The position numbers and the translations under genes were made by a program. The notes under the pieces were generated by a model that saw only the letters and a list, made by a program, of their open reading frames with translations, was not told the origin of the DNA and did no database searches. A DNA stretch of 64,000 nt from Thermoguttaceae bacterium. Its GTDB lineage: Bacteria; Planctomycetota; Planctomycetia; Pirellulales; Thermoguttaceae. The stretch is taken from NCBI GenBank assembly GCA_017434455.1, contig JAFRFG010000036.1, positions 124,001 through 188,000 of the forward strand, read 5' to 3'. Below, piece by piece: positions 1 to 7,096 of this stretch. Each line of letters opens with the position of its first letter. The stretch's first letter is position 1.

Positions 1-228
1 ATGGAAATCGCCGTCGATACGGAGGCGGCCTATGCCATGACCCGCCGCCTGGCCAAAGAGGAAGGCCTTTTGGTCGGTATCAGCGCCGCCGCCAATGTGC
101 TGGCGGCTGTTGAGACGGCAAAACAAGCGCCGGCCGACTCGGTCATCGTGACCGTTCTGTGTGACAGCGGGACACGCTATCTGGATGAGCCGGTTTGGCA
201 AGACGCTATCGACAAAGGAGACAATTGA
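1..228 (+). CDS. cysK: Cysteine synthase (O-acetylserine sulfhydrylase), C-terminal fragment
   Basis: The window opens inside this gene, so the ATG at base 1 is an internal methionine. The 75 visible residues match the end of PLP-dependent O-acetylserine sulfhydrylases: a helix with a charged RRLAKEEG stretch, the glycine-rich GLLVGISAAAN segment (small-residue turn of the fold), and a closing VTVLCDSGTRYL stretch typical of CysK/CysM. The family joins O-acetylserine with sulfide, or with sulfur on a carrier protein in CysM-type enzymes, to form cysteine. It ends one base before the next ATG (TGA 226-228, ATG 230) and is clearly in one operon with the sulfur-carrier/E1 fusion that follows. 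Whether it is sulfide-using CysK or carrier-using CysM cannot be decided from this fragment. Confidence 0.85.
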   Translation: MEIAVDTEAAYAMTRRLAKEEGLLVGISAAANVLAAVETAKQAPADSVIVTVLCDSGTRYLDEPVWQDAIDKGDN

Positions 229-229
229 T

Positions 230-1684
230 ATGGCAGCGACAGTACTCATTCCCACAACACTGCGCGGTTTCACAGGGAATCGGTCGGAACTTGCTCTTGC
301 CGGTTCAACGGTGGCGCAGGTTCTGGATGCCCTGGTAAAAGAATGCCCGGAGACGAAAACGGCGCTTTTCGACGGCGAGGGGAAACTGCGTTCCTTTGTG
401 AACGTATTCGTGGACGGCAGAAATATCAAAGAACTGGCGGGCTTTGAAACCGAAGTCAAAGACGGAACGGAGATCATGCTTATTCCCGCCATCGCCGGTG
501 GCTCCGGCAGGAAAAGTGTGTTAGGGGAACGGGAAGGCGAAAAGTTATCCAATGACGAAATATCCCGCTACAGCCGCCATCTGCTCTTAAAAGAGGTTGG
601 CCTCAAGGGACAGCTGCGGCTCAAAGCAGCCAAAGTACTGATCGTCGGTCTGGGCGGCCTCGGGACGCCCTTGGCGCAATACCTGGCGGCGGCGGGGGTC
701 GGAACGATCGGCCTTGTGGACTATGACGACGTGGAGGCCTCCAATCTGCAGCGTCAGGTTATCCATCGCACCCGCGATGTGGGCCGTCCCAAAGTCGCTT
801 CGGCGAAAGAGGCCGTGAAGAATATCAATCCCTTGGTGAAGACCGAGGCGTACAACCTGCGGCTCACGGCCGAAAACGCCCTGGACCTCATCGGGGAATA
901 CGATGTTGTCGCGGACGCGACAGACAACTACAAAAGCCGTTACCTCATCAATGACGCCTGCGCGCTTCTGGGAAAACCGGATGTGTTCGGCGCCATGTAC
1001 CAGTTCGAGGGACAGGCGTCGGTCTTTTACGCCAAGGAAGGACCTTGTTATCGCTGTGTCTACCCTTCCCCGCCCCCGCCGGGACTGGTTCCCTCCTGCG
1101 CCCAAGGGGGTGTGGTCGGGGTACTCCCCGGCATTATGGGCACCATCCAGGCCAATGAGGTCATTAAACTCATCGTCGGAGGCGGAGAACCCTTGATCGG
1201 GCGGCTGCTGGTATTTGATGCCTGGAGAATGAAGTTCCGGGAGTTGAAAATCGCCAAACAGAAGGAATGCCCGCTTTGCGGAAAGAAGCCGGCCATTGCG
1301 CAGCTCGCCGAGTACGACTACGACGAGTTCTGCGGCCTGCGGCAGGAAGAAAAGGAAGAGCCCATCCTGGGGCTGGAGGCCAAGGAACTGAAACGGCGCA
1401 TGGACGACGGGGATCCCCTGACCATCGTGGATATCCGTGAGCCCCATGAGAGGGCCATTGTTAAGTTTCCTAAGGCCGTGGTCATCCCTATCGGGCAGCT
1501 GGCCCGCCGGCAGAACGAGCTGAACCCCAAGGTGGACACGGTATTCATCTGCAAGGAAGGAAAACGAAGTATCCTCGCGATTCGCACCTTGCGGGAGGCG
1601 GGCTACCAGGGCCCTATGTTTAATCTGAAAGACGGTATCAATACCTGGGCCAGGGATGTCGACAGATCGCTGCCCCAGTATTGA
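230..1684 (+). CDS. moeB: Sulfur carrier (MoaD/ThiS-like) - MoeB/ThiF E1 - rhodanese triple fusion
   Basis: This 484-residue protein joins three sulfur-transfer modules. Residues 1-91 are a ubiquitin-like sulfur carrier that reaches the family's terminal Gly-Gly at 90-91, but here the chain continues with Ser-Gly-Arg-Lys. Residues about 105-365 are a MoeB/ThiF adenylating domain with the nucleotide motif GLGGLGT (140-146), the DYDDVEASNLQRQ segment, zinc ligand pairs CYRC (273-276) and CPLC (347-350), and PSCAQGG near 290. Residues about 385-484 are a rhodanese domain with catalytic Cys441 in CKEGKRS. The E1 would adenylate the carrier tail and the rhodanese would supply persulfide sulfur. 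The start at 230 has AAAGGAG at 215-221; a longer upstream reading overlaps cysK and adds no conserved sequence. Because Gly-Gly is internal, cleavage or an unconjugated role must be assumed. Confidence 0.88.
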   Translation: MAATVLIPTTLRGFTGNRSELALAGSTVAQVLDALVKECPETKTALFDGEGKLRSFVNVFVDGRNIKELAGFETEVKDGTEIMLIPAIAGGSGRKSVLGEREGEKLSNDEISRYSRHLLLKEVGLKGQLRLKAAKVLIVGLGGLGTPLAQYLAAAGVGTIGLVDYDDVEASNLQRQVIHRTRDVGRPKVASAKEAVKNINPLVKTEAYNLRLTAENALDLIGEYDVVADATDNYKSRYLINDACALLGKPDVFGAMYQFEGQASVFYAKEGPCYRCVYPSPPPPGLVPSCAQGGVVGVLPGIMGTIQANEVIKLIVGGGEPLIGRLLVFDAWRMKFRELKIAKQKECPLCGKKPAIAQLAEYDYDEFCGLRQEEKEEPILGLEAKELKRRMDDGDPLTIVDIREPHERAIVKFPKAVVIPIGQLARRQNELNPKVDTVFICKEGKRSILAIRTLREAGYQGPMFNLKDGINTWARDVDRSLPQY

Positions 1685-1748: not shown

Positions 1749-2684
1749 ATGGCAGACGTGAAGAAAATTAACGCTTTGGGCAAAGCTGTTGCCTACAATC
1801 TCGCGGACGTCGCTAAGACGCGGCCGCAGTTCAAGTCAATCACTCCGCGCTGGCTCACGAAGCTCTTGGAGTTCAAGGGGCTTGAGTCCGGTATTTACCG
1901 GGTCAACAAAGTGGTGGAGGGGGATACTCCCCTGGATGTGCTCTGCAGTTCGGAGAAGAAGTCGGACATCATCCCCCAGGGCTACGTGGAATATGAGCTG
2001 GAGCCGAGGGAGTACATCTTAAACTCCATCTCCACCATCCTCAATGTCAACACGGCGGTGCAGGATGTGTTCAGTTCTCCCTACGATCAGGCCAAGGAGC
2101 AGCTTGCCCTCGCCATCGAGAGTCTTCGTGAAAGGCAGGAAAGCCAGATCATCAACAACGATGATTACGGCCTTTTGAAGAACGCTGCGGATTCCCAGCG
2201 TATCCAGACCAGGAACGGCGCGCCGACGCCGGATGACCTTGACGAGCTCATCACGAAGGTCTGGAAGGAGCCGTCCTTCTTCCTCGCCCACCCCCGCGCC
2301 ATCGCCGCCTTTGAGCGTGAATGCACGAAACGCGGTGTGCCGCCGGTTACCGTGAACCTTATCGGCGGCACCTTCATCACCTGGCGCGGCATCCCGCTGA
2401 TCCCCACCAACAAGCTGCTGGTCGACGGTCTCAAGGAGCCGAAGAGTCTCGGCGGCAAGACGAATATCCTGCTTCTGCGTACGGGGGAGACAAAGCGCGG
2501 GGTCATCGGGCTGTACCAGGCCGGTATGAAAGACGAGGCCTCCCGCGGTCTGTCCGTGCGCTATCGCGGCATCGACGACAAGGGTATCGCATCCTACCTC
2601 CTGTCGCTGTATTGCTCGGCCGCCATCCTTGCCGATGACGCCCTGGCTGTCCTGGAGGATGTGGAGGTAGGTGAATATGACTAA
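1749..2684 (+). CDS. Family 2A encapsulin shell protein (SrpI-like)
   Basis: This 311-residue protein is recognised as a family 2A encapsulin, a HK97-fold protein that assembles into an icosahedral shell. Characteristic stretches are SITPRWLTKLLEF near residue 28, EPREYILNSISTI near 83, SPYDQAKEQLALAIE, the long conserved DDLDELITKVWKEPSFFLAHP region (about 163-183), CTKRGVPP, FITWRGIPLIP, and SYLLSLYCSAAILADDALAVLED near the C-terminus. The length fits family 2A; the extra cyclic-nucleotide-binding domain of family 2B is absent. A strong AGGAGG sits at 1735-1740, eight bases before ATG. Its stop overlaps the start of the cysteine desulfurase by eight bases, a close coupling expected for shell and cargo. 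Related shells enclose cysteine desulfurase and have been linked to sulfur storage or sulfur starvation; that role is carried over by homology. Confidence 0.93.
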   Translation: MADVKKINALGKAVAYNLADVAKTRPQFKSITPRWLTKLLEFKGLESGIYRVNKVVEGDTPLDVLCSSEKKSDIIPQGYVEYELEPREYILNSISTILNVNTAVQDVFSSPYDQAKEQLALAIESLRERQESQIINNDDYGLLKNAADSQRIQTRNGAPTPDDLDELITKVWKEPSFFLAHPRAIAAFERECTKRGVPPVTVNLIGGTFITWRGIPLIPTNKLLVDGLKEPKSLGGKTNILLLRTGETKRGVIGLYQAGMKDEASRGLSVRYRGIDDKGIASYLLSLYCSAAILADDALAVLEDVEVGEYD

Positions 2685-4260
2685 TCATCCGTCCATTCCG
2701 GCAGGACTTCCCACGGAAGAAGAACTTCTGGCGTTGGCGAACCAGTTCGAGCCGGAAGTCTGCTCCCGGGGAATCGATGCCCTTCTGACCAGCGGGGATA
2801 CGCGGGTTCTGGACCACGCCGCGGCCAAGGCCGCGGCGGCGGAAGAAACACTCCGTCTGGGGGATGCCGACTACACCCGTCTGATCGATGATGCCCTCTC
2901 GGCGGGGGCGCCGCTGGCAGACGCGCTGCCCGTGAACGCGGGAAACGAGCTGGCCTACCGGCCTTCCGTCATTTCCGTCAAGGAGGCGGACGGTTTCGCG
3001 CCGGACACACAAAAGACTGCTCCTTCCGCGAAACAAAGCGGCATCGTCGTCGGCAGCAAGTCACTGGAGGATATCCGGCGGGATTTTCCGATTCTCTCGG
3101 AAAAAATCAACGGGCATGACCTCGTCTGGCTGGACAATGGGGCGACCACCCAGCGGCCCCAGGCCGTCATCGATCGTCTCGTGCGTTACTACCGCCACGA
3201 GAATTCCAATGTCCATCGCGGAGCCCATGAGCTGGCGGCGCGTTCGACGGATGCCTATGAGGGAGCCAGGCAGACAGTCGCCGATTTCATCGGGGCGCCG
3301 TCCAAAGACAACATCGTCTTTGTGCGCGGCACGACGGAAGGGATCAACCTCGTGGCGCAGAGCTACGTCAAGCAGTATCTCCGGCCGGGGGACGAGATTA
3401 TCCTGACGCTTTTGGAGCATCATGCCAACATTGTTCCCTGGCAACTCATCGCCGAGGAAACGGGGGCGGTGATCCGAGTGGTTCCCGTCGACGACAGCGG
3501 TCAGTTGATTTTGCCGGAGTATGAAAAACTGTTTTCCCGCCGGACAAAGTTTGTATCGGCCACCCATGTCTCCAATACCCTCGGTACCGTCACCCCTGTT
3601 CATGAGCTGGTACAGATTGCCCATCGTCACGGTGTGCGCGTCCTGATTGACGGCGCTCAGTCGGTGGCGCATCTTCCCGTGAATGTGGCCGCCTTGGACG
3701 CGGATTTCTTCGTTTTCTCCGGCCACAAGATTTTCGCTCCCACGGGGATCGGCGCGGTTTACGGAAAAACCGAGGTGCTGGAAGCCGCCAGACCTTACCA
3801 GGGCGGCGGGAATATGATCAAGGACGTGACCTTTGAACGCACCATCTACAACCCCGCGCCCAACAAGTTCGAGGCGGGAACCGGAAGCATCGCCGATGCC
3901 GTGGGGCTGGGGGCCGCCCTGGAATACCTCAGCGGTATCGGCATGGCGGACATCAGCCGCTATGAACGCGAGCTCACGGAGTATGCCATGAGAGAACTGG
4001 CGAAAATCCCGGGTCTAACCCTCATCGGTACGGCTCCGGGCAAGGCGGGAGTGCTCTCCTTTGTACTGGAAGGGCATGATAATGCGAGTGTCGGTGAATA
4101 CCTGAACCAATACGGCATCGCCGTCAGGGCAGGACATCACTGCGCCCAGCCCATCCTGCGCCATTTCGGGCTGGAGGGGACGGTTCGCCCCAGTCTGGCG
4201 TTTTACAATTCCCCGGACGACATCGACGCGCTGGTGCGCGCCATCCGGGCAATCGTGTAG
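2677..4260 (+). CDS. Encapsulin cargo cysteine desulfurase (SufS-like, with N-terminal targeting extension)
   Basis: This 527-residue PLP enzyme takes sulfur from L-cysteine, leaving alanine and an enzyme persulfide. Residues 1-128 are an Ala/Glu/Pro-rich, probably disordered extension with two more ordered patches (about 8-30 and 80-103). This is the position of the shell-targeting region in family 2A cargo. The catalytic domain starts near 129 and is of class II (SufS/CsdA) type: [32 protein letters not shown] lysine 351 in SGHKIF, and persulfide Cys489 in [14 protein letters not shown] at 2663-2667 is nine bases before the ATG at 2677; an earlier GTG at 2671 has too short a spacing. The start overlaps the encapsulin stop. 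A housekeeping SufS would lack the long extension, which supports the cargo call. Confidence 0.9.
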
Positions 4261-4316: not shown

Positions 4317-4337
4317 CTAAAACAAATGAGGGATTCT

Positions 4338-5291
4338 ATGCCGGACATTATAGAGCGGGGCATTCAAGACGTTATTCACGATATCCTGTCGGATTACGAG
4401 AAGGGACGCAGCATTGACAAATTGGATATGTTCCGCCAGCCGGACCGCCAGGTGGTGACCGAGTTGACGGAAAAGCTGTTCCGTATTGTTTTTCCCGGTT
4501 TTTTTAAGGATAAATCTTATCGCATCTATCACGCGAAAAACAGTCTGCCTTTGGTCATGGAAGATGTGGCCTATCTTCTCAATAAGCAGATAACCGTCGC
4601 GCTTCGCTACAACCTGAAACCCGGCCAGGGGGATGAGGACATTGACCGGCGCGCTGAACATATTACATTGGAATTTCTCAGGGGGATCCCCACGATTCGG
4701 GATTTCATAGAAACCGACGTACAGACGACCATGGACGGCGACCCGGCGGCCAACAGCGAGGACGAGATTATTTCTTCTTATCCCGGGATTCATGCCATCA
4801 CGGTGCACCGCCTGGCCCATGCGCTCCTTGGTCTCGGGGTGCCGGTGCTTCCCCGCATCATGAGCGAGTACGCCCACAGCCGCACGGGTATCGACATCCA
4901 TCCCGGCGCGAAAATTGGCAAATTTTTCTTTATCGACCATGGAACCGGTATCGTGATCGGCGAGACCACGACCATTGGAGATCATGTAAAAATTTACCAA
5001 GGGGTGACACTGGGGGCGCTTTCCACCAAGGGAGGCCGCCACCTTAAAAATCAGAAGCGCCACCCCACGATCGAGGACCATGTGACCATCTACTCCGGTG
5101 CCTCCATTTTAGGGGGCAATACCGTTATAGGGAAAGGGGCCGTCATTGGCGGCAACGCCTTCGTCACGAAGTCCGTCGCGCCTTTTACCCATATCAGCGT
5201 GAAAAACCAGGAACTTCGCTACGACAGAAAGAAAAACGTCGTAAACAAAACGGATATCGAGGAAGACGGGGATTGGTTCTACATGATCTGA
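4338..5291 (+). CDS. epsC: Serine O-acetyltransferase (EpsC type)
   Basis: This 317-residue enzyme acetylates L-serine to O-acetylserine, the substrate of the cysteine synthase at the start of the window. The N-terminal ~140 residues are helical, as in EpsC-type enzymes, longer than in classical CysE. The C-terminal half is a left-handed beta-helix of hexapeptide repeats with [22 protein letters not shown], the active-site [14 protein letters not shown] stretch, [34 protein letters not shown] and [13 protein letters not shown]. The ATG at 4338 is chosen over ATG 4326 because GAGGG at 4328-4332 is then at normal distance. Its place at the end of the sulfur operon suggests that serine activation, sulfur release and cysteine synthesis are expressed together. 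Confidence 0.9.
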
Positions 5292-5293
5292 TA

Positions 5294-5734
5294 TCAAATG
5301 TAGAACATAATGCTGGCGGCTTCCTTGTCGGCGGCGCCGAGAATATCCTCTAGGGAGACAGAGGCGAGAAGCTCACGGAGCTTTTCGTCCATCGGCCGAT
5401 AGATAAAGGAATCAATAGCGGAATCAATCTCCGGCATCTTGCCTCCCGTCGCGGGGGAGGCACTCTCCATAAGGGTAAGCTCGATGACCGACAGGATGTC
5501 GTAGGCACTGATTTCTCTCGGCGGCCTTGAAAGCAGGTATCCCCCCTGAGATCCTTTGATGGAATCGACAAGGTTGGAACGCTTCAGCAGGGCAAAGACT
5601 TGTTCCAGATAGATCTTGGAGATCCCCATTTTTTCGGAAATGGTCATGATCGTGACCGGGGAACCGGAGTCATAGTTTTTTGCCAGATAGGTCATGGCGG
5701 CTATGCCGTAGCGACCTTTCGCGGATATTTTCAT
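5294..5734 (-). CDS. Rrf2-family transcription regulator without cysteines (CymR-like logic)
   Basis: This 146-residue protein has the Rrf2 winged-helix start MKISAKGRYGIAAM, the helix-turn-helix region ISEKMGISKIYLEQVFALLKRSNLV and the wing SIKGSQGGYLLSRP. It contains no cysteine at all, so it cannot bind an Fe-S cluster through cysteines as IscR and NsrR do. In this it resembles CymR of Firmicutes, which senses cysteine status through contact with O-acetylserine sulfhydrylase; such a partner is encoded 5 kb away in the locus. The gene converges on the sulfur operon, its stop lying two bases after that of the acetyltransferase. ATG 5734 is preferred over an upstream ATG at 5743 because a GAGGA ribosome site fits it. 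That it controls the sulfur operon is inferred from position. Confidence 0.85.
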   Translation of the reverse strand: MKISAKGRYGIAAMTYLAKNYDSGSPVTIMTISEKMGISKIYLEQVFALLKRSNLVDSIKGSQGGYLLSRPPREISAYDILSVIELTLMESASPATGGKMPEIDSAIDSFIYRPMDEKLRELLASVSLEDILGAADKEAASIMFYI

Positions 5735-5759
5735 CGGAATCATCCTCTATGATGGCCTT

Positions 5760-6068: not shown

Positions 6069-6887
6069 TCACTTCTTAGCCGCCGGCTCGGGGATCTCGT
6101 GAAACGCACCGTCGCGCAGTTCGTACCAGCGCAGGTCGATGACCAGATTTTTCCCCTCTCCCTCGCTTCGGCACACGAGAAACCGCGGCCGGCTCGGATC
6201 GTCCCCCTGGCGCGAGGCCGGAGCCAGATCGATCCCGGTGGAGACATCCAGTTCATACCGATCCAGCACGTTCATCTGACGGTCAACCCGAAGGGTGTTG
6301 TACGTCACCGTCGGGTCTTTGCGATAGAAACCGAAAATGATCGAGTCGTTCCAGGCGGCCGCCGTCTGCGTCCCGTAGTGGATACTCGCGCCGAAGTCGA
6401 TCTTATATTCCGCCACGAAGTTAAAGTCGGCGTCGTACTCGGCCACCCGATCGACGGAATGTTCCTCCCCCGTGGAGGGACCGCCGATGAAAAGATGATC
6501 ACCCAGGAAGGTGACTCCATCGGTCCCGCGGCTTTCGGTTAAATCGATCTTTCGAAGGAGGTTCAAGTCGGTGTCGTATTCGAACAGGCCGATATGCTCC
6601 TCGCAGGACATCGATACGTAGAGTTTGCCGTTATGCAGCGCGGGGTCTCCCGAATGCCAGGGGGCTTCTCTCCAGCAAAGGAGTTTTCCTGTCCAGTCCA
6701 CTTTGAAGATAGCGTTGGCCGAAACGAGGTAGACCGCGTCCTCATCGCAGCAGATCCCCTGGATATGGGTCGCCGCGTTGGCGAACGCCTCGTCGCTGAC
6801 CTCGATCGCGCGGACACGCGATACCCATAAAAGCGCGGTCAGCACCGCCAGAAACGTCAGGAAAAAGCGCGTCATTTTACCGTTCAT
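6069..6887 (-). CDS. Secreted beta-propeller-like protein, function unknown
   Basis: This 272-residue protein begins with a clear signal peptide: MNGKMTR, a hydrophobic core, then RVRA before the mature part. The mature chain shows repeated short beta-rich segments such as DAVYLVSANAIFKVDWTGKL, NGKLYVSMS, GLFEYDTDLNLLRKI, DHLFIGG, VAEYDADFNFVAEYKI and RVDRQMNVLDRY, the look of blades of a small beta-propeller. No catalytic motif was recognised. ATG 6887 is preferred because AAAGG lies eight to nine bases upstream and the signal peptide starts there; the reading frame is open further upstream without conserved features. It may be a periplasmic or surface binding protein. Confidence 0.7.
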   Translation of the reverse strand: MNGKMTRFFLTFLAVLTALLWVSRVRAIEVSDEAFANAATHIQGICCDEDAVYLVSANAIFKVDWTGKLLCWREAPWHSGDPALHNGKLYVSMSCEEHIGLFEYDTDLNLLRKIDLTESRGTDGVTFLGDHLFIGGPSTGEEHSVDRVAEYDADFNFVAEYKIDFGASIHYGTQTAAAWNDSIIFGFYRKDPTVTYNTLRVDRQMNVLDRYELDVSTGIDLAPASRQGDDPSRPRFLVCRSEGEGKNLVIDLRWYELRDGAFHEIPEPAAKK

Positions 6888-7018
6888 AGAGAAAACCTTT
6901 CGTTCGTTGTCGTTCCTTCTCTTCCGAGAGTCCCTCCGGAAAAGGGTATCCCAGGTGCGTCCCAAAGTCAAGTGTTTCGGTTCTATCCCGTTTTTACCCT
7001 CCCGACGACACGAATCGT

Positions 7019-7047
7019 TTGTATGCGGGAGGGCTTTTGTGTATAAT
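7019..7047 (+). promoter_or_regulatory. Sigma-70-type promoter of the Sel1-repeat gene
   Basis: TTGTAT (7019-7024) and TATAAT (7042-7047) are separated by exactly 17 bases, about 50 bases before the ATG at 7097. Confidence 0.6.
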
Positions 7048-7096
7048 GGAAATGTTTCGGTCACACTCCCCTTCCCCCAAAAAACAAGGATCAGCC

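Follow-up and report, generated by a model that had tools for sequence, protein, structure and literature searches.

Adenylation requires a free carboxylate, and a glycine internal to a polypeptide chain has none. In the HcyS/HcyF/HcyD system of Wolinella, a JAMM protease trims the tail of the carrier and later releases homocysteine. That carriers fused to other proteins are set free by JAB peptidases is a prediction of Iyer et al. (2006; PMC1779556); MoaX of Mycobacterium tuberculosis is cut between Gly82 and Ser83 (PMC4326299), a JAMM of Deinococcus cuts MoaD-MoaE (DR0402; PMC8832034), and Mec+ of M. tuberculosis has been described as hydrolysing the CysO-cysteine adduct (PMC3227635). Carriers joined to an activating enzyme are also on record, the accessible part of a 2024 survey listing MoaD-MoeB and MoaD-MoeB-rhodanese fusions identified computationally in archaea and a few bacteria (PMC11237513).

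Here we describe, in a 64,000-nucleotide stretch of bacterial DNA (the window; C3:124001-188000), a gene that very likely encodes a JAMM-processed precursor of the CysO type, with carrier, E1 and rhodanese in one chain. Such a precursor would tie a protein-thiocarboxylate sulfur relay to a Family 2A encapsulin and would name the parts of that relay: a single zymogen-like chain that combines rhodanese, E1 and carrier, and the JAMM as the release step.

Results

Architecture of the fusion protein

Positions 230-1684 (+) of the window translate as a single open frame of 484 amino acids with no internal stop. Its residues 1-91 (230..502, +) form a beta-grasp sulfur-carrier domain of the CysO/MoaD/SAMP1 type (PF02597, E 7e-12) that ends in PAIAGG and also exceeds the cut-off of the NCBIfam SAMP1 model NF041918 (63.9 bits; cut-off 60). 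The codons for Gly90-Gly91 occupy bases 497-502, after which the frame continues with SGRKS; as 393 more residues follow Gly91, the Gly-Gly is not the free C-terminus of the primary product, and a free end would require cleavage. The putative JAMM cleavage site, Gly90-Gly91/Ser92 (497..505, +), is suggested by its conservation among relatives and by the cut of MoaX at the same Gly-Gly/Ser (PMC4326299). Beyond it lies a variable linker without cysteine (residues 92-105; 503..544, +), which spans 13-28 residues in relatives.

Three Pfam domains, all well above cut-off, lie along the chain: ThiS (5-91), ThiF (114-348) and Rhodanese (384-475). Similarity to MoeB and Uba4 begins at residue 105, with an E1-like adenylation domain of the MoeB/MoeZ/Uba4 type (545..1285, +; PF00899, E 4.5e-84) that has the Gly-rich loop GLGGLG, crossover-loop Cys290 and two CxxC pairs (CYRC/CPLC). 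A connector bearing Cys368 in EFCGL (1286..1378, +) leads to the rhodanese domain (1379..1654, +; PF00581, E 2.6e-12), where Cys441 lies in the active-site loop CKEGKRS. On alignment, Cys290, Cys368 and Cys441 correspond to Cys202, Cys305 and Cys397 of Uba4, which are its thioester, sulfur-release and persulfide cysteines, respectively (PMC7527816). Together, the Gly-rich loop, crossover cysteine, two CxxC pairs and rhodanese cysteine place this part of the protein with the E1-rhodaneses MoeZ, Uba4 and MOCS3. A first-pass annotation had read the same order, Gly90-Gly91 followed without stop by SGRKS, a MoeB domain and a rhodanese, and both the frame and the Pfam domains bear it out.

That annotation had also proposed structure prediction for the linker at 92-105. 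In the AlphaFold model the individual domains are confident; pLDDT is about 60 across the linker and below 50 at residues 88-93, so that the Gly-Gly junction is, as modelled, an exposed, flexible site in a disordered region. Docking of the carrier onto the E1 is not confident (pTM 0.64), and the model is silent on contact in cis.

The surrounding operon and its origin

The fusion is embedded in a set of sulfur genes. A CysM-type cysteine synthase of 308 residues (L002:15302-16228, +) begins 699 bases left of the window, has its 3' end at window positions 1..228 (+), and terminates with a stop codon 1 nt ahead of the fusion ATG; its best PDB match is E. coli cysteine synthase B, and CysM of M. 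tuberculosis is matched as well. Downstream, a SrpI-like Family 2A encapsulin shell protein (1749..2684, +) scores above the cut-off of its family model (NF041162, 479 bits; cut-off 380). The next gene (2671..4260, +) encodes a SufS-like cysteine desulfurase that falls just below the model for the encapsulated enzyme (NF041166, 790.6 bits; cut-off 800), exceeds the TIGR01979 cut-off, and carries an N-terminal extension of ~130 residues as in encapsulated cargo. The first-pass annotation was right about the desulfurase-encapsulin neighbourhood. An EpsC-type serine O-acetyltransferase follows (4326..5291, +; NF041874, 156 bits; cut-off 150), and on the opposite strand an Rrf2 regulator (5294..5743, -; PF02082, E 1.5e-27), nearest CymR (NF047409, E 6e-27, below its cut-off) and a probable regulator of sulfur status.

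Several features set this sulfur island apart from its host. The fusion shares 90% identity with that of a Veillonellaceae MAG and, on the tree, clusters with Selenomonadaceae; none of the six other genomes of the genus has the Gly-Gly-bearing form, their fusion being either the altered version described below or lacking; and G+C content is 0.53-0.58 over most of the island, against about 0.60 around it. The window also encodes a seryl-tRNA synthetase, which shares 65-68% identity with those of the genome's own GTDB family and 36-38% with those of donor-like genomes of the Selenomonadaceae/Veillonellaceae type; on these identities contamination by a foreign contig was rejected, as far as tested. 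A native synthetase beside a Veillonellaceae-like fusion indicates an island within a native contig that was probably acquired laterally, as judged from sequence comparison. Similar proteins (MNGKxxRFFLT...) flank the island at window positions 6069-7064(-) and at L002:9351-10604(-), as if duplicated at insertion.

A single JAMM gene beyond the window edge

It had been remarked that no JAMM-type protease is in the window. Although literally true, this reflects where the window edge cuts the locus: the only Prok-JAB (JAMM) match in the genome (C3:121033-121407, 90.5 bits) is found 2.6 kb to the left of window base 1 and 2.8 kb from the fusion. The encoded protein has 144 residues and is of the HcyD type, with motifs EACG and HSHPATPSRPSEED. 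Its E...HxHx7SxxD motif is intact and an internal Gly-Gly occurs in the same genome, the combination expected of a JAMM-processed fused carrier.

This JAMM belongs to a divergent operon with the order 69-residue carrier (tail MGGGSR), E1 without rhodanese, JAMM, TusA and a 730-residue MetY-CysK protein. The arrangement HcyS-HcyF-JAMM-TusA-MetY/CysK is one that we take to match the HcyS/HcyF/HcyD system of Wolinella. It also corresponds to operon type 4e of Iyer et al. (PMC1779556). The last gene (L002:10522-12714(-); C3:118522-120714) joins MetY, an O-acetylhomoserine sulfhydrylase, and CysK in one chain; MetY and CysK are separate genes in many related loci and in L093. HcyS-like genes occur in 35 loci (e.g. 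L002:14249-14458(-)) with the invariant end FLYFMGGG and then a variable tail of one to five residues or more (SR, Q, AR, CK, GYGVH). The genome encodes three carriers, namely the fusion, the HcyS-like protein and a ThiS ending in GGG (on C47); two of the three have residues after the Gly-Gly, and one JAMM is available to them.

Recurrence of the fusion and linkage to JAMM genes

The search of related genomes for the fusion and for a JAMM, which the first-pass annotation had put forward as a check, was productive on both counts. The scan took one genome per species, and about 80 relatives were compared in all. Fusions with 50-90% identity were found at 76 loci, nearly all as a single open frame, apart from L023, which has a frameshift, and loci truncated by contig ends. 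The hosts are nearly all gut or rumen bacteria, including Selenomonadaceae, Ruminococcus, Lachnospiraceae and a Succinivibrionaceae. A sequencing or frameshift artefact is ruled out by conservation of the frame in more than 70 loci, and a stop or frameshift near base 503, named at the outset as what would undo the fusion, did not materialise in a frame that recurs in 76. The layout, initially considered unusual, is so relative to textbook carriers; within this gene family, carrier-E1-rhodanese is the rule.

Reading continues across the site in 75 sequences, the window included; Gly90 and Gly91 are invariant in these, and the residue that follows is Ser in 47, Ala in 27 and Thr in one. Mean entropy is 0.18 bits for residues 86-91 against 1.73 in the linker, where S-V-[L/I] at 96-98 (bases 515-523) is alone conserved (Ser 68/75, Val 60/75), possibly as a docking motif for the JAMM, the shell or the E1.

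A JAMM gene is present within the fetched stretch at 54 of the 76 loci and less than 400 nt upstream of the fusion at 35, often as cysM-JAMM-fusion-shell-desulfurase-acetyltransferase. Where no JAMM was nearby (22 loci), 19 of the genomes have one elsewhere; none was found in three draft genomes with an intact Gly-Gly fusion (G004, L006; G009, L029; G011, L032). At L029, the encapsulin is absent downstream of the fusion. In a sample of 120 genomes from one Ruminococcus-containing family, a JAMM over cut-off occurred in 4/4 fusion genomes and 12/116 others (Fisher p 2e-4).

Two JAMM subtypes were distinguished: Mec-like (ECCG), adjoining the fusion, and HcyD-like (EACG or EDCG). Gly-Gly is followed by Ser-Gly in 18/23 loci with the HcyD type only and in 1/30 with the Mec type, and the second residue after Gly-Gly is Pro in 24/30 Mec-type loci. 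On the tree of the E1-rhodanese part this covariation shrinks to five independent pairs, of which three to four agree, with none opposed for the Pro trait; sign tests over the five contrasts gave p values of mostly 0.06-0.125. That the residues after Gly-Gly appear to track JAMM subtype is therefore suggestive and phylogenetically confounded.

Four states of the carrier terminus among relatives

Relatives display the carrier in four states. In two single-contig genomes at least 99% complete (G372, G333), it is unfused and ends IAGG-stop; an HcyD-like JAMM was not found in either, G372 having a weak Prok-JAB match (E 1e-6). In G582 the carrier is unfused and capped by one residue (IAGGF-stop; L114:3650-2193(-)), with a JAMM directly upstream; this form looks like a halfway stage from the free to the fused carrier. 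The third state, fused with Gly-Gly, comprises 74 loci besides the window, together with five genomes from another genus in the window's family (G595, G598, G607, G610 and G611, the operon of the last having both JAMM types).

The fourth state, fused with the Gly-Gly lost, occurs in four genomes of the window's own genus (G539, G540, G541, G543), as fusions of sister species at L093:7317-9056(+), L094:3-1559(+), L095:1707-3380(-) and L096:3875-5509(-). Glu replaces Gly91 in 4/4; Cys290 and Cys368 are likewise missing from all four, and Gly145 from 3/4; the zinc CxxC pairs and rhodanese Cys441 are retained. The linker is a tract of 74-119 residues with 8-16 cysteines in the three measured, and in L093 contains tandem CGSPCDSGCESV-like repeats. 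These genes adjoin a 77%-identical 2A encapsulin, and the desulfurase where the contig extends. Loss of the equivalent of Uba4 Arg77/MoeB Arg73 (residue 175) was considered as a hallmark of this locked form and rejected, as Ser, Cys and Thr also occur there in Gly-Gly-bearing fusions.

No JAMM was found in any of the six other genomes of the genus; as the fourth-state drafts are 73-86% complete, such absence is weak in any one genome but persuasive in all. On the E1-rhodanese tree the Gly-Gly-less fusions form one clade inside the Gly-Gly-bearing ones (100*), so the Gly-Gly was probably lost from a fused, Gly-Gly-bearing ancestor. A Fisher test of Gly-Gly against JAMM gave 2e-5, the Gly-Gly losses constituting a single evolutionary event. 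That the Gly-Gly is lost where there is no JAMM speaks, on evolutionary grounds, for a need for release.

Discussion

A proposed route for sulfur, and its alternatives

We propose that a JAMM metalloprotease, for which the HcyD-type protein is the only candidate in the genome, would cut between Gly91 and Ser92. Judged from conservation and gene content, cleavage after Gly91 is the part of the scheme in which we place the highest confidence: an internal glycine offers no carboxylate to adenylate, so a conserved Gly-Gly beside an intact E1 implies release, and in close relatives without a JAMM the carrier is free or its Gly-Gly is broken. The E1 would then adenylate the freed Gly91 carboxylate, which would pass via a Cys290 thioester and receive persulfide sulfur from rhodanese Cys441, leaving a thiocarboxylate on the carrier. 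This would most likely feed the adjacent, probably co-transcribed CysM, with O-acetylserine supplied by the operon's acetyltransferase, and the JAMM would also release cysteine from its adduct with the carrier, the part that Mec+ plays for CysO. We favour CysM as the acceptor, with some reservation. The encapsulated desulfurase would be the likely source or store of sulfur for the rhodanese, although a link to the encapsulin sulfur pool seems to us evenly balanced between true and false. Because the encapsulated desulfurase consumes cysteine, a simple desulfurase-CysM loop would be futile; a deposit-and-withdraw scheme, in which sulfur would be held inside the shell, is tentatively preferred, and a literature search on stored encapsulin sulfur gave nothing beyond the 2021 survey.

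The first-pass annotation had offered two options, a protease that cuts after the Gly-Gly or a carrier that acts only inside the fusion. The former is strongly supported for this gene; the latter suits the sister species that lack a JAMM. For the window protein, a carrier never released, which would act only within the fusion through other sulfur chemistry or as a tethered regulatory domain, is very improbable. Gly-Gly-less fused relatives in JAMM-free sister species lend it some credit, as does a Cys-rich linker that could carry persulfides; against it, an internal glycine lacks the carboxylate that adenylation needs, the linker here has no cysteine, and Gly91, Cys290 and Cys368 are intact here and not in those sister-species fusions. 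A cut after Gly91 by a non-JAMM protease, or by the precursor itself, would accommodate the three Gly-Gly-intact drafts without a detected JAMM, and the MoaX protease was left unnamed by the 2015 study (PMC4326299); we nevertheless consider it improbable given the strong linkage of JAMM genes, often placed between cysM and the fusion, and the loss of Gly-Gly where the JAMM is absent in the window's own genus. It does count against cleavage by a JAMM that the genome's single copy sits in the HcyS operon and may act on HcyS specifically.

That the fusion is merely apparent, with carrier and E1 produced apart through internal initiation or frameshifting, is suggested by a GTG in the window's linker with an AGGA-like stretch upstream; yet an internal start would leave the carrier C-terminus unfreed, and in-frame start codons within 16 codons after the Gly-Gly occur in only 31/75 loci, none of them conserved, which makes this explanation exceedingly remote. 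Cleavage by the JAMM could also serve an acceptor outside cysteine synthesis (molybdopterin/tungstopterin, tRNA thiolation or thiazole). MoeZR exemplifies an E1 shared by several carriers and pathways, and an adjacent cysM is absent from several related loci. Here, however, cysM ends 1 nt before the fusion and a serine acetyltransferase lies downstream; no MoaE-type partner was noted nearby, and the genome has its own ThiS (C47). Another acceptor is on this evidence unlikely, though it merits serious consideration.

The locked sister-species form may, we tentatively suggest and with somewhat more doubt than belief, be a novel sulfur protein, holding persulfide or polysulfide on its Cys tract beside the sulfur-handling encapsulin in place of thiocarboxylate chemistry, the window protein representing the ancestral mechanism. 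If so, both states exist in one genus and the switch is directly testable, and the genus offers a ready-made protein pair for testing the need for release.

Comparison with known systems

The Wolinella HcyS-HcyF-HcyD system resembles the present one in that the carrier is made with residues after the Gly-Gly that a JAMM removes; it differs in that the cap has one to five residues, against a whole E1-rhodanese here, and in having an E1 without rhodanese, with TusA instead. The CysO-MoeZ-CysM-Mec+ pathway of M. tuberculosis shares a CysO-like carrier, an E1-rhodanese with two CxxC pairs, an adjacent cysM and a JAMM (PMC3227635), and many relatives have the order cysM-JAMM-carrier; here, in contrast, carrier and MoeZ are one chain with the Gly-Gly buried, and the operon also encodes a 2A encapsulin with its desulfurase, and an acetyltransferase. 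The actinobacterial CysO precedent originally invoked for cleavage is loose, as the activity described for Mec+ is hydrolysis of the CysO-cysteine adduct and not release of a fused carrier. MoaX and the Deinococcus JAMM are closer: MoaX likewise has an internal Gly-Gly followed by Ser and requires cleavage for activity, but in both cases the partner is the acceptor enzyme MoaE, whereas here it is the activating E1 and the rhodanese.

The fusions in the accessible part of the 2024 survey have the same domain order, in other lineages and with assignment to molybdopterin; that part does not describe JAMM linkage, Gly-Gly status or encapsulin context (PMC11237513). Family 2A encapsulin-cysteine desulfurase operons, in the portions of two accounts available, have in common with this locus the shell, cargo, serine acetyltransferase and rhodanese; those portions do not mention carrier, E1 or JAMM components, and the rhodanese is here, unlike there, part of a carrier-E1 fusion (PMC8346489, PMC8049743). 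In mostly non-subscription literature we found no description of a CysO-type carrier-E1-rhodanese precursor in a 2A encapsulin operon, nor of the systematic JAMM linkage or the locked Cys-rich derivative, such silence being weak evidence. The principle is known from MoaX, DR0402, HcyS and CysO; its placement next to a 2A encapsulin and the locked Cys-rich derivative represent new variants.
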